Shown piece after piece: positions 20,138 through 29,029 of a stretch of DNA of 64,000 nt. A program made the translations under genes and the position numbers. This stretch comes from Elusimicrobia bacterium CG_4_9_14_3_um_filter_62_55. GTDB taxonomy: Bacteria > Elusimicrobiota > Elusimicrobia > UBA1565. The DNA lies in contig PFUL01000007.1 of NCBI GenBank assembly GCA_002790095.1, positions 1 to 64,000 on the forward strand, in the 5' to 3' direction. Every line of letters begins with the position of its first letter. Within the stretch, counting starts at the first letter, position 1. The notes under the pieces are model-generated. The model saw only the letters and a list, made by a program, of their open reading frames with translations, had not been told where the DNA came from and searched no databases.

Positions 20138-21052
20138 GTGAATCGCGCGCTCCATATTTCCGTTCTCTTCGCGCTGCTTGCCGCCGCCGCAGCCTGCCGG
20201 GAGCCGCTTCCTCAGGTGACGCTGGCGGACACCGAGACGCCCCCGTCCTCCTCGGCGGAAAAACGGCTGCTGCGCATCGCCATCGCGCCGATGGAGTCGG
20301 CGGAACGGAGCTCCCGCCACTACGCCGAAATATTCGAGGCGGTCGGCGAAAGGATGGGGATGAAGGTGCAGTTTCTCCACCGCCAGACCTACGGCGACAT
20401 ACTCGCGCTGGTGCAGCACGGGGTCGCGGACGCCGCCTTGGTCTGCAGCGGACCTTTCGTCCGGGCCGAACACGAGTTCGGGGCGAAGATCATCGCGGTG
20501 CCGCTGCGGGCCGGAACGACCTCCTACCACGCTCTGCTTATCGTTTCCGCAGCCGGCCCCATCCGGCGGCTCGACGAACTGCGCGGCCGCAGCTTCGCCG
20601 TTTCCGATCCGCTCTCCACCTCCGGGCTGCTCTACCCCGCCGATCTGCTCCGCGGGAGCGGGGAATCCATCGGCTCGTACTTCAGCCGCGTGATCTATAC
20701 TCGCAGCCACGACAAATCGATCCGCGCGGTGGCGGACCGCGTCGTCGACGCGGCATCGGTCTCGGACATCGTCTTCGACCGCATGGTCCAACAGGAGCCC
20801 GCGATAGCGTCGAAACTCCGCGTCATCCTGCGTTCGCCCCCCTACGGCCCGCCTCCTCTTATCGTTCACCCGCACGCCGACCCCGCGTTGACGGCAAGGC
20901 TGCAGCAGGCGCTGCTGCATCTGCACGAAGACGCGCAGGGACGCGCCCAACTCGCGAAAATCGGCCTCGAACGATTCTCCCCCGCCGAAGCGGTTAACTA
21001 CGACGCGGTCCGGCGGCTCGATCGGGGGGCATGGGGGGACCAAAAGCGATGA
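20138..21052 (+). CDS. PhnD-like periplasmic binding lipoprotein
   Basis: A 304-aa protein starting at GTG 20138, with a lipobox (ALLAAAAACR, lipid on about Cys20) and a phosphate/phosphonate-binding-like fold. The family pattern shows as RIAIAPMESAE, YAEIFEAVGERMGMKVQF, YGDILALVQHGVADAALV, and GRSFAVSDPLSTSGLLYP. No permease or ATPase is nearby. The next two genes are a histidine kinase and a response regulator, with a four-base overlap to the kinase, so this is probably the ligand sensor of that system and not a transporter subunit. The ligand is unknown; oxyanions are typical for the family. Confidence 0.85.
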   Translation: MNRALHISVLFALLAAAAACREPLPQVTLADTETPPSSSAEKRLLRIAIAPMESAERSSRHYAEIFEAVGERMGMKVQFLHRQTYGDILALVQHGVADAALVCSGPFVRAEHEFGAKIIAVPLRAGTTSYHALLIVSAAGPIRRLDELRGRSFAVSDPLSTSGLLYPADLLRGSGESIGSYFSRVIYTRSHDKSIRAVADRVVDAASVSDIVFDRMVQQEPAIASKLRVILRSPPYGPPPLIVHPHADPALTARLQQALLHLHEDAQGRAQLAKIGLERFSPAEAVNYDAVRRLDRGAWGDQKR

Positions 21053-22494
21053 GGACCCGGCGCTGGCCCTTCGCCCGCAGCATCAAGGGGGACCTGCTCG
21101 CGGGAACCGCGTTTTTCGTCGTCGCGCTGGGAACGGTTCTCGTCGGCGGCACCCACAGCGCCTTGGGGACTCTACTGCGCGAAGAGATGCAAAAGCGCGG
21201 CACGGCGATCGGCGCGCTCGCCGCGAACGCAAGCCGGGAAATGCTGCTCAACGCGGACACCTACGCGCTGCACCAAATCCTCGTCGATCTGCAAGCGCAA
21301 AACGAGGACGTGGCGTACATCTACCTGCTCTCGGCCAACGGCAAGGTGGCGGCCCATTCCTTTCTCAACGGCTTCCCCCGCGGCCTGGCTGCGCTGCGCG
21401 CCGGACTCGAGCCGCGCGCGACTCTGCACATCCGAACGCCGGAGCGCGGCGCTATCCGGGAAATCTCGGTGCCCGTGCTCGACGGAGAACTGGGCAGCCT
21501 TCAGGTCGGCATGAGTGAGGAACGGTTGCGCGAGCGTTTGTCCCGGCTGGTTTTCATTTGGGTGCTGGCCGCCGCGGCGCTTTTGATCGTGAAGCTCATC
21601 GCGGGATTTTGGCTTACGCTCCGATTTTCCAACCGCGTCGACGGCCTGATCGGGAAGGTTGAGCGGATCGGCCGCGGCGACGACGGCCCCCCCGCCGACG
21701 AGAGCGGCTCCGATGAAATCTCCAGCCTCGCGAAGGCCTTCAACCGAACGAGCACGCAGCTTCGGGAAACCCGGCGGGATCTGATCCACGCCGGGAAGCT
21801 CGCGGCGGTCGGCGAACTGGCAAGCGGCGTCGCGCACGAGATCAACAATACGCTCAACACCATCGGCGTGTGCGCCCAAGCGCTGCAGGAACGAGCGGAA
21901 AATCCCGCCTTGCGTGCGGCAGCGGGCTTTGAGGATTTTCCGGAATATTTGGGCGCGATCCGCGAGGAGATCGAACGCTGCCGGAAGATTACGGCAAATC
22001 TGCTCGATTTCGCGCGCCAAGACGCACCCGAACGCCGCCGCGTCGACTTAAACGATCTGGCCCGCGGCGCGGTGCCGCTTTCGGCGCTTCACCTCGGCAC
22101 TAAGGAGGAAGCGATCGCACTTAAGCTCGCGCGCGATCCGCTCCCGGTGCGGGGGGATCCGTCGCAGCTGCATCAGGCCATCGTGAACCTTTACCTGAAC
22201 GCGCTCGATTCGTCGCCTCCCGGAGAGCGGGTCGTCGTCTCAAGCCGACGAGTAAACGGGAACGCGGTGATCTCGGTGCAAGACCGCGGCCCCGGCGTGG
22301 CGCCGGAGCACGCCGAGCGCATCTTCGACCCGTTTTTTACGACCAAGCCCGCAGGCAAGGGGACCGGACTCGGGCTCTCGATCTGCCGTCGCATCGCGCA
22401 ATCCCACGGCGGGACGATTTCCATGGCAAACCACCCCGCCGGGGGAGCCGTTTTCGAGATGACCCTTCCCGTTGATGTTGAACCCGGAGGTTAA
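21049..22494 (+). CDS. Membrane histidine kinase, partner of the PhnD-like protein
   Basis: The start is placed at ATG 21049, overlapping the previous stop (ATGA). Two membrane segments (about residues 18-36 and 175-195) enclose a periplasmic sensor. A HAMP-like linker (NRVDGLIGKVERIGRG) precedes HisKA with H263 in SGVAHEINNTLN, then a HATPase domain with N-box (HQAIVNLYLNALDS), G1 (DRGPGVA) and G2 (GKGTGLGLSICRRI). The NtrB-like HEINN variant usually partners with NtrC-type regulators, as it does here. The periplasmic domain presumably reads the state of the lipoprotein encoded just upstream. Confidence 0.88.
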   Translation: MRTRRWPFARSIKGDLLAGTAFFVVALGTVLVGGTHSALGTLLREEMQKRGTAIGALAANASREMLLNADTYALHQILVDLQAQNEDVAYIYLLSANGKVAAHSFLNGFPRGLAALRAGLEPRATLHIRTPERGAIREISVPVLDGELGSLQVGMSEERLRERLSRLVFIWVLAAAALLIVKLIAGFWLTLRFSNRVDGLIGKVERIGRGDDGPPADESGSDEISSLAKAFNRTSTQLRETRRDLIHAGKLAAVGELASGVAHEINNTLNTIGVCAQALQERAENPALRAAAGFEDFPEYLGAIREEIERCRKITANLLDFARQDAPERRRVDLNDLARGAVPLSALHLGTKEEAIALKLARDPLPVRGDPSQLHQAIVNLYLNALDSSPPGERVVVSSRRVNGNAVISVQDRGPGVAPEHAERIFDPFFTTKPAGKGTGLGLSICRRIAQSHGGTISMANHPAGGAVFEMTLPVDVEPGG

Positions 22495-22498
22495 GACC

Positions 22499-23791
22499 GT
22501 GCCCGAGCGAATCCCAAGCGTACTGATCGTCGACGACGAGCCGCGCCTCTGCGCGCTGCTCCAGAAGGAGTTCGAACGTAAGGGCTTTCCCGTCCACGCG
22601 GCCGGCGAAGCCTGGCGGGCGTTCGACATCCTCGGAAAGCAGCGCATCGACGTGGCGCTGCTCGACATCGTCCTTCCGGGCGAGGACGGAATCTCCATCC
22701 TGCGGCGAATTCGTGCCGCGCATCCGGCGACCCAAGTGATCATGCTGACGGGAAACGCCTCGGTGGGCACCGCGGTCCAGGCGATGAAGTTCGGCGCCTA
22801 CGACTACCTTTCCAAGCCCTATGACCTGTCGAAATTGATCCGCCTCATCGAACACGCGCACGAGGAAGCCCGAGTCCGCCGTCAAAACCGCTCGCTGCGC
22901 CTCGAATTGGCGAGCCGGATGGGTCCGACCGAACTGATCGGCCCCAGTCCGGCGCTCGCGCGGACTCGCGATTCGCTTCGCCGCGCGGCCGAATCGGACT
23001 CGCCGATGCTCATCGAAGGGGAACTGGGAACGGGAAAGGAACTGGCGGCGCGCTTCGTCCACCGCGAGAGCCTGCGCGCTGACGGGCCGTTTCTGGCCGC
23101 CGATTGCGATCTTGAGACCGAGGCCGCGCTGGAACGCCTGCTGTTCGGCTCCCCGGAACAGCCGGGCATGCTCCTTGCTCGCGAAGACGGCGTCGTGATG
23201 CTCTCGTCCGTCGAGCGCATCCCGCTCACGCTGCAGCAGCGCCTCTTGAGCCATCTGCAGGAAACCGCGACGAGCCTCGCGCCGATGCGGGTAATCGGTG
23301 TCTCGCGCGGCGATTTGTCCGATCCGGTTCGCGAAGGCCGCTTCCTCGAGGAACTCCGGGACGTGTTCACGGTGCTGCGCGTGCGCATGCCGGCGCTGCG
23401 CGAACGCGCCGAGGATATTTTACCGCTGGCCGAGCTGTTCTTCGAGAAGCACCGGCAATTGCGCGAGAATCCCCCGGCGGGGCTTGCGGCATGCGCGAAG
23501 CGGCGCCTGCAGTCCTATCCGTGGCCCGGGAACGCCCGCCAGTTGAGCGCCGCCTTGGAACGCGCGGTGCTGCTGTGCGAGGAGCGTCTCGTGCGGGCGA
23601 GCGATCTCTCCTTGCCCCGAGTCGGCACCGGCGTCGAGGCGGGGGCTCATTCGCTTGAAAGCGTCGAGCGCACCCACATCCTCGCGACGCTCGCGAAAGC
23701 CGGAGGGCGCAAGAGCAAGGCCGCGGCGATGCTTGGAATCGATTCGAAAACACTTTACAATCGGCTCGCGCAATACGACGGCGAACACTGA
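22499..23791 (+). CDS. NtrC-type response regulator with a degenerate AAA+ domain
   Basis: The start is GTG 22499 after GGAGG. The receiver domain (residues about 7-120) has D56 in LLDIVLPGEDG and lysine in YLSKPYD. The AAA+ region keeps the Walker A (GELGTGKE, near residue 175). However, the sigma-54-contacting GAFTGA loop is absent: after RLLFG the sequence goes straight to SPEQPGMLLAREDG. The Walker B Asp-Glu is also lost (GVVMLSSVERIP, where GGTLFLDEI is usual). The arginine-finger region and the Fis-type helix-turn-helix (RKSKAAAMLGIDSKTLYNRL) are intact. It therefore binds DNA but should not remodel sigma-54 polymerase as classical NtrC does. Confidence 0.85.
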   Translation: MPERIPSVLIVDDEPRLCALLQKEFERKGFPVHAAGEAWRAFDILGKQRIDVALLDIVLPGEDGISILRRIRAAHPATQVIMLTGNASVGTAVQAMKFGAYDYLSKPYDLSKLIRLIEHAHEEARVRRQNRSLRLELASRMGPTELIGPSPALARTRDSLRRAAESDSPMLIEGELGTGKELAARFVHRESLRADGPFLAADCDLETEAALERLLFGSPEQPGMLLAREDGVVMLSSVERIPLTLQQRLLSHLQETATSLAPMRVIGVSRGDLSDPVREGRFLEELRDVFTVLRVRMPALRERAEDILPLAELFFEKHRQLRENPPAGLAACAKRRLQSYPWPGNARQLSAALERAVLLCEERLVRASDLSLPRVGTGVEAGAHSLESVERTHILATLAKAGGRKSKAAAMLGIDSKTLYNRLAQYDGEH

Positions 23792-23803: not shown

Positions 23804-24622
23804 TTAGGCGTAGGCGTGCAGGGAGGAGAAAAAGTAGTTGACGCCCCAGTATGTGCACAGGACGCAGACGAAGCCGACGACGCAGGCCGCCGCGGCCCAG
23901 CGCCCCCGCCACGAGTGAACATGGCGCATGTGAAGGCAGATCGCGTACACCAACCAGGTTACCAAAGACCAGGTCTCCTTCGGATCCCAACTCCAATAGG
24001 TCCCCCAGCACAGATCCGCCCACACGGCGCCGGTGGCGATCCCGATGGTCAAAAACGGAAAACCGAAATCGACCATCTGCAAACCGACCGCATCGAGCCA
24101 GGCCAGCAGCGACGCCCGGTCGCCGAAGAACGGAACACGCTCCCCTCGTCCGCGTTCGAAAATCAGATAAAATGCGCCGCACGCGAAGGCCACTGCGAAC
24201 GCCGCGTAGGCGATGGAGCAGGCCAGGACGTGGATCAACAGCCAGTTGCTGCGCAAAGAGGGCATCAACGGCAGCGCTTCTTTCACGTTAAAGGACGCCA
24301 ATCCGAGAAGGCAGACCGCAAGGGGAAGCGTGAACACCGCGAGAATCGGGGTCTTGTGCCTGCGCTCCAGGAGGAGGCTCGCGGCCACGACGAACCAGGC
24401 TAAAAGCAAATCCGTCTCGTACATGTTTGAGAGCGGCGGCCTTCCGGAAATCCAGATCTGATGTCCCATAAGCCCGGTGTGCGCGGCGAACCCGGCCCAA
24501 ACGGCCAGCACCGTAGCCAGACGCAGCCGCCGGACGCCGAAAACGGCCGAGGCCAGCGCCCCTAAAGCCGCCAGGAAATAGAGCAGAATCGCCGACTTGA
24601 ACGCCGCCGCGAAGAGTTCCAT
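23804..24622 (-). CDS. ccsA: Cytochrome c maturation protein CcsA (System II)
   Basis: A 272-aa inner-membrane protein with about eight membrane segments. The heme-handling tryptophan-rich motif is WGTYWSWDPKETWSLVTW, flanked by histidines (HVHSW upstream of the last helix; LLIHVLAC earlier) that serve as axial ligands in the family. With ResB it exports heme and attaches it to CXXCH motifs of apocytochromes outside the membrane. It starts five bases after the resB stop. The substrates in this window are the cytochromes at 17196-17690 and 28238-29029. Confidence 0.93.
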   Translation of the reverse strand: MELFAAAFKSAILLYFLAALGALASAVFGVRRLRLATVLAVWAGFAAHTGLMGHQIWISGRPPLSNMYETDLLLAWFVVAASLLLERRHKTPILAVFTLPLAVCLLGLASFNVKEALPLMPSLRSNWLLIHVLACSIAYAAFAVAFACGAFYLIFERGRGERVPFFGDRASLLAWLDAVGLQMVDFGFPFLTIGIATGAVWADLCWGTYWSWDPKETWSLVTWLVYAICLHMRHVHSWRGRWAAAACVVGFVCVLCTYWGVNYFFSSLHAYA

Positions 24623-24627
24623 TCCCG

Positions 24628-26001
24628 CTACCCGCCCCTCTCAAGAAACGAACGCAGCCGCCGAAGTTCGTCCTCAAACCCGATCCGGTTGCGTCGGCTC
24701 ATTCCGGCGATCGCGACTTGGGCGCCGCCCTCGATGCTCGCGACGCGCAGGAACACGCGGCGATGGAATAGCGCGCAGCTCATGAAGGTCCCCGCGATCA
24801 GAATGATCAAGCCGGCATAGAGTACCGGCCGACCGGGATCGCGCACGGTCTTCAACCCGATCGCGTAGCGCGGCGCAACCGGAAGCAGTCTCGCCCGCAG
24901 CGAGCCCGCTCCGCGGTGAAACGCCCCTTCGGCGTCCGGGAAAATCCATTGAGAAGCCGAACTTCCGTCCGCCCCGGTCGTCTCGACGAGCAGCGCAGGA
25001 TTCTTAAATTCCTCAGAACGCGTCCCCCCCTTTCCCTCGTGAAACACGAAATCCGGAACAAATTCGAGCGCGCGCATCCGCATTCCCCCGGAGGTTTCGA
25101 CTGCGGGGCCGCCCACCCTCAGCGCCAGATCCTGCGGGGGGACACCGGTCGAAGCCAAGCGCAGCGTCACCTCGGGCACCGCAGCGCGGTAGTCCATCTG
25201 GTAGAACCGGAATCCGTCGTACACGAACGGCTCGTTGATGCGGATCTCGCCGTGGGAGACCGGGCGCTCCCCATCAAGGAGAGTGATGCGGCTGCGGTAG
25301 CCCTTGTGGAGATCCTTAAATCTTTCGGTTTCCGTATATTTGTCGATCGAGAACGAATCCAAACGGACGCGGTATCGGGATTCGAGTACGGGGATTGATT
25401 CCCCCTCCACCGCCGTCCGCTTGCCGCTTTCTCCCAGCAAGGCGCTGATCCCGCCTCCCAGCAAAACGACGATACAGCCCCAATGGATCGTGAAGGCCCC
25501 GAAGCGCGCGAAGGCGGCCCGTTCCGCCTCGAAACGGATCTCCCCGTCCGCGTTCTCCGCCGGGCTCACGCGGTAGAACCGCCGCCGCAGCCATGCCGCC
25601 GCGCGCGCGGCGATCCCCTCGAGCGTCTCCTCAAGCGGCGGGCGCGCCGCCTCCCGGATGATTTCGAAGGCGCGGGGGTTGGCGTCCTCCAAGCGCCGCG
25701 GAGGCGGCGCCAAGAGCACCTGGCGCAGATGCGCCGTAGAGCAGACGATCATGCTCGTCAGCAGCCAAAGCAGCAAGCCAAGAAAGGCGGGCCCGTGGTA
25801 GAGATCGTCGAGTCCCAACGCCGCGATCCACGCGGCATACCCCGCACCGTAGCGCTCGGCGTAGAAGGCGATAGGATTTCCCTGCGGGATCAAGGTCCCC
25901 GCCGCGGAGAACGCGGCGAGCGCGGCCAGCACCGCGACGGCGACGCGGATGGAGCGAAGCCACGCATACAAAACGTCGAAAACAGCGGTGAGAAATTTCA
26001 T
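24628..26001 (-). CDS. resB: Cytochrome c maturation protein ResB/Ccs1 (System II)
   Basis: A 457-aa protein. Three N-terminal membrane segments include the family motif GTLIPQGNP, a large periplasmic domain follows (about 190-395), and a last membrane segment (GLIILIAGTFMSCALF) lies near the C-terminus. ResB chaperones apocytochrome thiols and forms the heme lyase with CcsA. The ATG follows GGAGCGAG. A TTTTCGTTGC motif lies 18-30 bases upstream, shared with the multiheme cytochrome gene. It converges on nothing and is divided from the porin gene by a terminator. Confidence 0.93.
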   Translation of the reverse strand: MKFLTAVFDVLYAWLRSIRVAVAVLAALAAFSAAGTLIPQGNPIAFYAERYGAGYAAWIAALGLDDLYHGPAFLGLLLWLLTSMIVCSTAHLRQVLLAPPPRRLEDANPRAFEIIREAARPPLEETLEGIAARAAAWLRRRFYRVSPAENADGEIRFEAERAAFARFGAFTIHWGCIVVLLGGGISALLGESGKRTAVEGESIPVLESRYRVRLDSFSIDKYTETERFKDLHKGYRSRITLLDGERPVSHGEIRINEPFVYDGFRFYQMDYRAAVPEVTLRLASTGVPPQDLALRVGGPAVETSGGMRMRALEFVPDFVFHEGKGGTRSEEFKNPALLVETTGADGSSASQWIFPDAEGAFHRGAGSLRARLLPVAPRYAIGLKTVRDPGRPVLYAGLIILIAGTFMSCALFHRRVFLRVASIEGGAQVAIAGMSRRNRIGFEDELRRLRSFLERGG

Positions 26002-26110: not shown

Positions 26111-28213
26111 TCAGAATCTGTACGAATAGGAGGTCTTGATTCCGTATCCCCGATAGTCGTCGAACCCGCCATAACCGCCGTGAATCGCCTGGCCGCCGCT
26201 GCCGCCGTGATCCTCGAAGCTGAACAACTCCGCGCCGAGACCGAGCGTCGTTGCCTTGCTGAGCATGTAGGACACGCCGACCCCGCCGCGCTGGAACAAG
26301 TAGCCGTTGGGTCCCAGCGTGTCGGTGAGCTGATAATCCGCGCTGCCCTTCAACGAGCCGGTAAAGTCGTACTCGGCGTTGAGCAGTCCGGTGGTGAAGT
26401 CGCCCTGGTAGTCGTAGGCGGCCGTTCCCTGCGCCCAATCGGAGGCCGGCGTCGTGATGTTCACCGGCGTGTTCAACTGGTATTTCTCATAGATAAGAGT
26501 CGCCATCAAATACGCCTTCGCCGACGGAGAGCCGCCCCAGTTTCCCGCCACCCGATGGATGCTCCAGTCTGAAACACGACCGTCGTTGGCGGCCCCCGAG
26601 GTCACGTCCTCAAGACGGAACGAATAGTCCAGAGCCGCAGTGCCGCGCGTGCCGAACATTCGGCTCATCCCCAGCGCCAATTCCTTCGTCTTCGACGCCA
26701 GGTTTCCGATGCGTCCCGGATAGAAGCGCGGATCCGCGTCCTGCGTGACGTTGTAATTGCGGTCCTTCTGCTTGTATTTGAACCCGCCGGTAAGTTTGAC
26801 CGGCAAGGACCGGTTCACGAGCTTCAGGCCGTATTCCTCGTTGCGGTGCGTGATTCCCGCTTTGTAGTCGTGGAACTGGATGCCGCTGTTGTAGTGCGCG
26901 GGATCGAACATCTCGTGGTTGCCGAGGTCCGCCCATTCCACCTGATCGATGTTTCGCTGCTCAAGCCGCACCCGCAGCGTCGCCTCGGTTTTTTCCCAAC
27001 CCCGGAATCGTACTTCGAGATCCTCAAGGAAGCGGTTCTCGTCGAAGCTGCTGAGCGACTGCCGAGGCGTTACCCCTTTTGCCAGCAGATTCGTTGATGA
27101 GTCCGTGTCGATCCGTTCGACGCGGGCGCCGGCGATGACGGAGAGATCCTTGATGCCCGCGACTCGGTTCTTGCGCACCCCTAAAGAACCCGCGTAGTTC
27201 TTGCGCAGATTCTTCGTGACGGTCGCGATCGAGTGGTTTCTCCCCCCGAAGGTCGCCTGATCCGGACGAATCACCTCGCGCGAGCTCTCGTTCTTGAGAT
27301 ATCCCGCCATCGCCCCGCCGGAAACCAAGGTGTCCTCGCTAATCTGGCTGTCGATGCTGACCAAGCTCACGTGACTCTTGAACTTCGGGTCGTCCTGAAA
27401 GGTCCGGTACTGATTGATCGCCCCCGCGCCGCCGACCTGCTTGTAGCGCGGAAAGTCGCTGGTCTGGCTGTCACGGTAGTATTCAGCCTCGTGGCGCGCC
27501 CGCAGCGTATGCCGCTCGTCGATCGTCCCCGAAACGTCGAAGTAGAACAGATCGCTCACTCCGTCGACCTTCGACAGCGCCGCAACCGCCCGGAGTTCCG
27601 GCATCACGCCGGGATTGCGGACCCGATCGCCGCGAAGCAACAGCTCCTTGCCGAAGCGGCTCCAGCGATGCCACCCGATCGCCGCGTCCGGCAGCCCCGG
27701 CTTTCTCAGCCCGAGCTCCAAGGTCATGTCCATCCGGTCGGCATACAGATTCTTGTCGCCCCGGTCCGCAAAGTCCTCCGAACTATAAAAGCCGTCGTCG
27801 ATGGTGCCCGGCGGCGTCGTGGTGTTGTCCGGAATGGCCTCTGCGCCGGTCAGGTTGTAGAGCTTGGGATCCCACGACTCGTTGGATCCGTCGAAGTACC
27901 GGCGCGCCCATTGCCCTTCAAGCAGGACGTAGCCGAGGTCCTCTTTCTTGAAGCGCGACTTGATCTTGTACTCGTCGTGTCCGAGCGCCTTCAGGTTCAT
28001 ATCGAAGCGCTCGGAATCGAAATGGAGCGACTCGATTCCGCCGCGGAACTTGTCCGCCTGGAACCAGTCCTCTCGGAACCGCCCTTCGTCCTTCATAATC
28101 CCGTAGTACTGCGCGCCGACCGTCACTTCGTGGTCGATCTCCTCGCCGCGCGCATTCGGCGCGCCAAACGCCAATCCGATCGCGAGGGCCGTGAGTGTCG
28201 TAATCTTTTTCAT
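26111..28213 (-). CDS. MtrB/PioB-like outer-membrane beta-barrel
   Basis: A 700-aa protein with a signal peptide (residues 1-23, NARGEE) and a long series of alternating-hydrophobicity strands separated by polar turns, ending in a terminal aromatic (SYSYRF) as outer-membrane barrels do. Size, strand content and the adjacent multiheme cytochrome match the MtrB/PioB family, where the barrel sheathes the cytochrome so electrons can cross the outer membrane. Unlike Shewanella MtrB no CXXC pair is seen near the N-terminus. The ATG follows GGAG. It lies 24 bases after the cytochrome gene on the same transcript. No outer-surface cytochrome is encoded nearby. Confidence 0.8.
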   Translation of the reverse strand: MKKITTLTALAIGLAFGAPNARGEEIDHEVTVGAQYYGIMKDEGRFREDWFQADKFRGGIESLHFDSERFDMNLKALGHDEYKIKSRFKKEDLGYVLLEGQWARRYFDGSNESWDPKLYNLTGAEAIPDNTTTPPGTIDDGFYSSEDFADRGDKNLYADRMDMTLELGLRKPGLPDAAIGWHRWSRFGKELLLRGDRVRNPGVMPELRAVAALSKVDGVSDLFYFDVSGTIDERHTLRARHEAEYYRDSQTSDFPRYKQVGGAGAINQYRTFQDDPKFKSHVSLVSIDSQISEDTLVSGGAMAGYLKNESSREVIRPDQATFGGRNHSIATVTKNLRKNYAGSLGVRKNRVAGIKDLSVIAGARVERIDTDSSTNLLAKGVTPRQSLSSFDENRFLEDLEVRFRGWEKTEATLRVRLEQRNIDQVEWADLGNHEMFDPAHYNSGIQFHDYKAGITHRNEEYGLKLVNRSLPVKLTGGFKYKQKDRNYNVTQDADPRFYPGRIGNLASKTKELALGMSRMFGTRGTAALDYSFRLEDVTSGAANDGRVSDWSIHRVAGNWGGSPSAKAYLMATLIYEKYQLNTPVNITTPASDWAQGTAAYDYQGDFTTGLLNAEYDFTGSLKGSADYQLTDTLGPNGYLFQRGGVGVSYMLSKATTLGLGAELFSFEDHGGSGGQAIHGGYGGFDDYRGYGIKTSYSYRF

Positions 28214-28237
28214 GGGGTCTCTCCTTGCTCCTCGCGA

Positions 28238-29029
28238 TTACCGATTAAGGGTTCGCCAGATATTGGAACCGTGAGGCGCGCGATGGTGGTCCACGCATTC
28301 CTCGCCGCTGCCGATGTCGTAATCGCCGCCGGCCGCGCCGGTCGTCGAGGCGGTCGATCCGTGCGCGACGCCGCCGCTCAGGTTGCCCGCGGGGTTTGTC
28401 GTGACGTCATAGTGACAGCGCAGGCAGGTGGTCGTCTGACCCGCCGTCAGCATCTTGTCCTGCACGGAGCCGTGCACGTTGTGGCAGGACTGGCAGCCGT
28501 CGCGCATCGCGTCGTGCTCGAAGACGAACGGACCCTTCACTTCCTTATGGCACTTGAAGCAGGCGGTGTACCGTTCTCCCTGAAGCTGCGCGATCGTGTT
28601 CGTCTTCGTGCCCGATCCGTGGAAGCCGTGGCAGTCGCTGCAGCTCATGCGTCCCTCCGGAACCGGATGGTGGTGCTGAAGCTTAAACTGCGCCTGGATC
28701 GCCGTGTGACAAACCAGGCAGTTCTTCGGTTCGTTGCGCTGAATGAACTTGCGCTTTCCGCCGGAATCCGCGTGAAGACTTCCCGGTCCGTGACAGGATT
28801 CGCAGGCTTTCGACGAGATCGTCTCGCCCTTCTCGCGGTTGACCGTCGCGTGGACGTCGTTTTTGACGTGTTTCTCGATCTCGGAGTGGCAGCTCAAACA
28901 GGTTTCGGCGCCGATGCGCGTCGCCGTTTCCGACGCCCCTCCGGAAACGCTCCAGAACAGAAGGGCGAGCAGCCCGAACGCCAGCGCCGATCCCTTTCCT
29001 TCCGGGTGTTTAAAAATTCCTTTCTTCAT
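28238..29029 (-). CDS. Seven-heme c-type cytochrome (MtrA/DmsE-like) with a broken eighth site
   Basis: A 263-aa protein with a signal peptide or anchor (about residues 14-32) and seven CXXCH motifs in order: CLSCH, CESCH, CLVCH, CSDCH, CFKCH, CQSCH, CLRCH. Extra histidines (HHHPVPEG, NVHGSV) supply distal ligands. Near the end, where MtrA/DmsE relatives have another CXXCH before HGSN, this protein has CVDHHRAPHGSN, with the second cysteine replaced by histidine. It would form a heme wire through the barrel encoded next. The family usually carries ten hemes, so this is a shortened member. A good ribosome binding site (GGAGGA) precedes the ATG. Confidence 0.9.
   Translation of the reverse strand: MKKGIFKHPEGKGSALAFGLLALLFWSVSGGASETATRIGAETCLSCHSEIEKHVKNDVHATVNREKGETISSKACESCHGPGSLHADSGGKRKFIQRNEPKNCLVCHTAIQAQFKLQHHHPVPEGRMSCSDCHGFHGSGTKTNTIAQLQGERYTACFKCHKEVKGPFVFEHDAMRDGCQSCHNVHGSVQDKMLTAGQTTTCLRCHYDVTTNPAGNLSGGVAHGSTASTTGAAGGDYDIGSGEECVDHHRAPHGSNIWRTLNR

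Follow-up and report, generated by a model that had tools for sequence, protein, structure and literature searches.

An Elusimicrobiota genome with a probable electron conduit of an octaheme type that occurs mainly in Verrucomicrobiota

He et al. (2017) described Verrucomicrobia that encode a novel porin adjacent to a periplasmic eight-heme cytochrome, found no homologues of the Geobacter and Shewanella systems in those organisms, and proposed reduction as the role of the system (PMC5615132). In the MtrAB, PioAB, MtoAB and DmsEF systems, a decaheme wire lies within an MtrB-type barrel (6R2Q), with heme 10 of MtrA towards the cell surface and heme 1 towards the periplasm (PMC12203936). The Geobacter Pcc complex (OmbB-OmaB-OmcB), whose outer cytochrome has 12 hemes, is described as unrelated to MtrABC by homology (PMC6344600, PMC4245776).

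Here we analyzed a stretch of DNA of 64,000 nucleotides (the window), which corresponds to contig 121 of an Elusimicrobiota genome (4.3 Mb, 95% complete). We propose that a cytochrome and a beta-barrel encoded there (Table 1) probably form an electron conduit across the outer membrane, of the octaheme type that occurs chiefly in Verrucomicrobiota. The pair is a variant of a known device, as the eight-heme porin-cytochrome type of Verrucomicrobia has already been described (PMC5615132). Judging by the literature, it has not been noted before that this type is remotely homologous to MtrAB, which hemes it lacks, or that the exit site can have a single cysteine; its occurrence in Elusimicrobiota is likewise new, although conduits in this phylum may have been mentioned earlier.

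Table 1. Positions of the features in the window and of related loci elsewhere
Feature	Position	Strand	Evidence or remark
MtrA/DmsE-superfamily multiheme cytochrome c, 263 aa	28238..29029	-	7 CxxCH and an eighth site with one cysteine
Junction lacking about 55 residues with MtrA hemes 3-4, about residues 90-104	28715..28760	-	Alignments; same in octaheme family
Degenerate outermost heme site CVDHH, residues 245-249, equivalent of MtrA heme 10	28283..28297	-	Alignments
Outer-membrane beta-barrel, 700 aa, about 25-26 strands (model), distant MtrB/PioB relative	26111..28213	-	
ResB, cytochrome c maturation system II	24628..26001	-	PF05140 E 9.6e-65
CcsA/CcsB heme-handling protein, system II	23804..24622	-	TIGR03144 (CcsB) above cut-off; PF01578
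PhnD-kinase-regulator triad, whole	20138..23791	+	
NtrC-like response regulator without GAFTGA motif	22472..23791	+	
Sensor histidine kinase (sCache, HAMP, HisKA, HATPase)	21031..22494	+	
PhnD-like periplasmic binding protein	20138..21052	+	Homologues beside decaheme conduits in sister genera
Triad homologues beside porin-cytochrome genes, L048	2844..6542		
Triad homologues beside porin-cytochrome genes, L049	956..3917		
Triad homologues beside porin-cytochrome genes, L051	11548..15316		
PhnD-kinase pair after MtrAB pair, Nitrospirota, L130	9918..12767		
Multiheme cluster C119, L042	1852..9722	-	
PF11854 barrel and neighbors, C155, L041	7772..12411	+	
5-heme and 4-heme ORFs, C64, L044	9107..10581	-	
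Omnitrophota relative, L076	6884..7861		
Armatimonadota MtrA relative, L139	552..1592		
Armatimonadota MtrA relative, L151	6722..7936		

Cytochrome, heme sites and nearest relatives

Seven CxxCH motifs, starting at residues 44, 76, 104, 130, 157, 179 and 202, were confirmed in the cytochrome, which the initial annotation had called a seven-heme protein; at most two occurred in any of 20,000 shuffled versions of its sequence. The annotation had also called the final site, CVDHH, degenerate. Its codons are TGC GTG GAC CAC CAT, and it is indeed one cysteine short, with a histidine at position 248, but both of its axial ligands (proximal H249 and distal H253) are retained. The cytochrome has eight heme positions, seven with a complete CxxCH and an eighth with both histidines and a single cysteine. 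Eight hemes would call for 16 axial histidines, and the protein has all of them, eight proximal and eight distal; the seven complete sites also retain their 14 cysteines. We rejected a frameshift or a one-base error as the source of CVDHH, since the frame and the downstream HGSN are intact and a change from TGC or TGT to CAC takes at least two substitutions.

The best match of the cytochrome by sequence in the PDB was chain A of the Mtr complex (6r2q_A, E 1.7e-25), which is MtrA under another molecule label in that entry, and the homology spans the heme-binding region. A fold search returned the same chain as its single significant match (E 2.9e-7, probability 1.00), using an AF2 model that is weak overall (pLDDT 62) and falls below 50 in its C-terminal part. 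The protein scored under the curated NCBIfam cut-offs for decahemes (148.8 versus 192.2 bits for TIGR03508 and 149.7 versus 325 bits for NF041028), and it does not have the ten heme sites of the MtrA/DmsE type, as hemes 3 and 4 are absent and site 10 is degenerate. In an alignment with 29 decahemes of the phylum, about 55 residues, which carry hemes 3 and 4 in the decahemes, are missing, and heme 10 is without its second cysteine.

A scan of 84,980 named genomes placed the nearest relatives of the cytochrome in Omnitrophota, Ca. Scalindua and Verrucomicrobiota (Opitutaceae, Akkermansiaceae and Limisphaerales). These proteins are 34-46% identical to it and align without a gap at hemes 3-4. They have seven CxxCH motifs (nine in Omnitrophota) and a CX4CH, typically CWSAGCH, as the last site. 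In an alignment, both cysteines of this last site were present in 17 of 17 octaheme relatives, and the window cytochrome is unique among those sampled in having lost one. An ORF of about 570-850 aa, a barrel where checked, adjoins the cytochrome gene in nearly all of them. The shortened wire noted in the initial annotation is therefore not peculiar to this lineage, since hemes 3-4 are equally missing in a known, mainly Verrucomicrobiota family. Our own first reading, that hemes 3-4 had been deleted from a resident decaheme of this genome, was dropped once that family was found. Through this comparison the Verrucomicrobia eight-heme type can be joined to the MtrAB superfamily, with hemes 3-4 as the part that it lacks and an atypical CX4CH as its terminal site.

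The Omnitrophota relative carries nine CxxCH and two CX4CH motifs, with the extra ones inserted near the C-terminal, surface end, a gain opposite in direction to the change in the window protein. Two Armatimonadota MtrA relatives, with nine CxxCH and a terminal CX4CH, represent a ten-heme form that shares the atypical last site. Most of the Verrucomicrobiota octahemes (loci L078-L092) have a lipobox-like cysteine (LISC, LVSC) ahead of the heme domain, suggesting that they are lipoproteins; no such cysteine was found in the window cytochrome or in the Omnitrophota member.

Barrel homology and family placement

The barrel was modeled by AF2 with 25-26 strands (pLDDT 76) and ends in SYRF, retaining a C-terminal aromatic residue. 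As a single sequence it gave no match to PF11854 (MtrB_PioB) up to E 1, and a scan of the whole genome with this family matched a barrel on another contig (C155) only. Single-sequence searches of Pfam, NCBIfam, PDB sequences, 147 relative genomes and, by peptide patterns, 84,980 genomes likewise returned no MtrB relative. The non-homology to MtrB that these searches implied was, however, overturned by profile and fold comparison. An HMM of the partner barrels from Verrucomicrobiota matched the window barrel over nearly its full length (95.6 bits, E 1e-29). A joint profile of these barrels matched a set of proteobacterial MtrB/PioB barrels, one member of which was checked against PF11854 (E 2e-102), with 99.1% probability (E 1.4e-18, 619 columns), and matched the PF11854-type barrels of Elusimicrobiota with 99.6%. 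Controls for this profile stayed at or below 7% with reversed alignments and at or below 2.3% with LptD, an unrelated 26-strand barrel from the same phylum. The best fold match in the PDB was MtrB (6r2q_B, TM 0.60/0.64), the next ones, TonB-dependent receptors and other barrels, scoring mostly about 0.3-0.44. Profile and model comparisons thus support a distant homology of the barrel to MtrB/PioB, and the initial description of it as MtrB/PioB-like stands.

In a phylogenetic tree the window cytochrome fell within the octaheme clade (support 99/96) on a long branch, and its H223 is a histidine found only in octahemes. By clade, by the missing hemes 3-4 and by H223, its sequence makes it a member of the octaheme family. 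We also considered a separate origin, in which a resident decaheme MtrA of Elusimicrobiota would have lost hemes 3-4 and so given rise to a short cytochrome that does not descend from the Verrucomicrobiota family. Sister genera do have decaheme MtrAB beside the same regulatory genes as in the window, and a looser basal placement, with the window protein as sister to the decahemes, stands in the AU test (p-AU 0.20), so that the cytochrome tree alone is inconclusive. However, grouping with the Elusimicrobiota decahemes was rejected with p-AU 0.002 under a constraint that also forces those rows together, and with p-AU 0.04 once the group also takes in the rows of Pseudomonadota and Aquificota that nest with these decahemes. 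The barrel supplies support for the octaheme placement that is independent of the cytochrome tree, as at the single-sequence level it matches the barrels of Verrucomicrobiota and not the resident ones. Together with H223, these results make an origin within the phylum very improbable.

The recognizable NrfB-like pentaheme units in the cytochrome could suggest a soluble periplasmic multiheme enzyme or carrier for which the barrel is merely a neighbor. Yet nearly all octaheme loci, and also the decaheme loci examined, have cytochrome and barrel genes side by side, and the fold matches of the two proteins are the MtrAB pair, with MtrA rather than any soluble periplasmic enzyme as the sole strong match of the cytochrome. 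In addition, its eight His/His pairs leave no heme site open for catalysis. We regard a soluble role as extremely improbable.

Gene neighborhood and distribution in the phylum

The cytochrome and barrel ORFs lie on the same strand in a two-gene operon beside resB-ccsA, as initially annotated. The order of transcription is cytochrome, barrel, resB and ccsA, with gaps of 24, 109 and 5 bp, and a ribosome site of the GGAG type lies between the first two ORFs. Scans for promoters and terminators gave no signal above chance. The mean GC content of the cytochrome and barrel genes (60-62%, versus 64-66% in the flanks) differs too slightly for an argument.

Adjoining ccsA and convergent with it is a triad encoding a PhnD-like protein, a histidine kinase and a response regulator. 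Homologues of this triad adjoin decaheme conduits in three other genomes from the family of the host (G003, G005 and G007), convergently as in the window in two of the three loci (L048 and L049), and those of the PhnD-kinase pair reach E values down to 1e-87 and 1e-143. This association in sister genera suggests control of octaheme and decaheme conduits alike by the triad, which is possibly a dedicated electron-conduit regulator. The regulator of the window, although of the sigma54 type, lacks GAFTGA and may not work with sigma54; the motif is also missing from the L048 regulator and present in the L051 homologue. On a Nitrospirota contig, too, an MtrAB pair is followed by a PhnD-kinase pair.

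A model of the octaheme cytochrome scored 300 bits in this genome and at most 137 in the others among 341 Elusimicrobiota genomes, so that no other carrier of the type is known in the phylum to date (1/341); one sampled congener (78% complete) does not have it. The initial annotation had spoken of a lineage not generally known for extracellular electron transfer or iron/metal respiration, but conduits as such are not foreign to this phylum. Decaheme MtrA relatives occur in 48 of the 340 other Elusimicrobiota genomes at E <= 1e-10 and PF11854 barrels in 20 of 56 genomes of the order, indicating that outer-membrane electron conduits are common in Elusimicrobiota.

The rarity of the octaheme type, including its absence from that congener, would fit an acquired cluster that is decaying or non-functional, with the loss of the exit-heme cysteine as the first visible lesion. 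The change from cysteine to histidine at position 248, unique among the sampled octaheme relatives, and the long branch of the cytochrome point the same way. Against such decay, both ORFs are full length, every cysteine of the seven complete sites and every axial histidine is in place, and the ribosome site, the operon order and the aromatic terminus of the barrel have been kept. We therefore consider decay quite unlikely; judged from sequence, the pair is most likely a functioning conduit.

Apart from the cytochrome, the 64-kb window showed no ORF with CxxCH and no linked outer-surface decaheme cytochrome of the MtrCAB type, in agreement with the initial annotation. A search for multiheme cytochromes elsewhere in the genome, which that annotation had suggested, found several. 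The contig C119 encodes an 11-heme cytochrome of 329 aa, two NHL-repeat proteins, an 11-heme cytochrome of 627 aa and a probable barrel of 549 aa, making up a second conduit-like cluster. The PF11854 barrel on C155 lacks the first ~140 positions of the profile; its neighbors are a tetraheme cytochrome, an FeS protein (DsrO/QrcC-like) and NrfD, and an MtrA partner is absent. On C64, ORFs with five and four hemes overlap by 22 bases and are possibly one nonaheme gene split by a frameshift. With such clusters present, the lack of a linked surface cytochrome does not mean that the cell has none; one may be encoded elsewhere, with candidates on C119.

An MtrC-type gene is also not linked in PioAB and MtoAB, and such pairs work inward (PMC12203936, PMC6344600). 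The window pair could likewise carry electrons inward from Fe(II) or another extracellular donor, in which case a surface cytochrome would be unneeded. For the Verrucomicrobia system, on the other hand, He et al. favor reduction (PMC5615132), and the NrfD/FeS/tetraheme module and the separate cluster with two 11-heme cytochromes appear, by analogy, more typical of outward respiration. An inward direction thus seems unlikely.

Proposed working and comparison with known systems

We propose an outward conduit that would work as follows. The cytochrome would be exported, loaded with heme by ResB-CcsA and held as a wire within the 25-26-strand barrel, as in MtrAB, with its N-terminal hemes facing the periplasm and its C-terminal hemes facing the cell surface. 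This wire would have eight positions instead of ten, or a length of roughly 60 versus 80 angstrom if the spacing of MtrA holds. By homology, the two hemes fewer would fall in the periplasmic half, and it is the outermost heme that would be compromised. Seven hemes would be covalently bound; the eighth would be either held by two histidines only or missing, and in both cases the exit would be recessed by about one heme. In vitro, CcsBA, the type of system II synthase encoded next to the pair, attached no heme to Ser-substituted single-cysteine motifs (PMC8112865), which makes a covalent heme at CVDHH doubtful, and the exit heme may be absent. As for direction, partner and acceptor, we infer that electrons most likely leave the quinol pool, cross the periplasm on a carrier and reach an extracellular acceptor, for which a soluble shuttle, a humic quinone or a chelated metal are candidates, or a surface cytochrome encoded elsewhere. 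The adjacent triad may set expression.

It is conceivable, though doubtful, that the loss of the covalent outermost heme is itself functional. The last covalent heme would then sit one step inside the barrel, and this recessed exit would suit small soluble shuttles that enter the pore, but neither minerals nor a surface cytochrome docked to the conduit. On this reading, an Elusimicrobiota lineage would have acquired the conduit next to a triad through which sister genera control their decaheme conduits. The window cytochrome is in any case a natural mutant for the exit heme, and it poses the question of whether a conduit functions with its last heme not covalently bound.

Among the known systems, that of He et al. 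(2017) resembles the window pair in having a porin (of at least 20 strands, versus 25-26 in our model) that adjoins a periplasmic multiheme cytochrome; its cytochrome has eight heme sites, and that of the window seven complete ones and an eighth with both histidines and one cysteine. The Verrucomicrobiota relatives found here fit that system by taxon, heme number and porin size, a likeness drawn from the description given of the Trout Bog genes. The window pair differs in its Elusimicrobiota host, in an eighth site without one cysteine and without the CX4 spacing, and from most Verrucomicrobiota members in lacking the lipobox-like cysteine. The Geobacter Pcc complex, compared by description, also combines an octaheme periplasmic cytochrome with a porin. 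With MtrAB, PioAB, MtoAB and DmsEF the pair shares sequence and fold homology, heme order and the bis-His pattern, supporting a distant homology of the pair as a whole to MtrAB/PioAB, whereas it has eight heme positions without hemes 3-4 and a barrel below detection by PF11854. The decaheme MtrAB systems of Elusimicrobiota (L048, L049, L051 and others) share with it the PhnD-kinase-regulator triad beside the conduit, but unlike it they have ten hemes, barrels of 805-817 aa (PF11854-positive where scanned) and no resB-ccsA between conduit and regulator.
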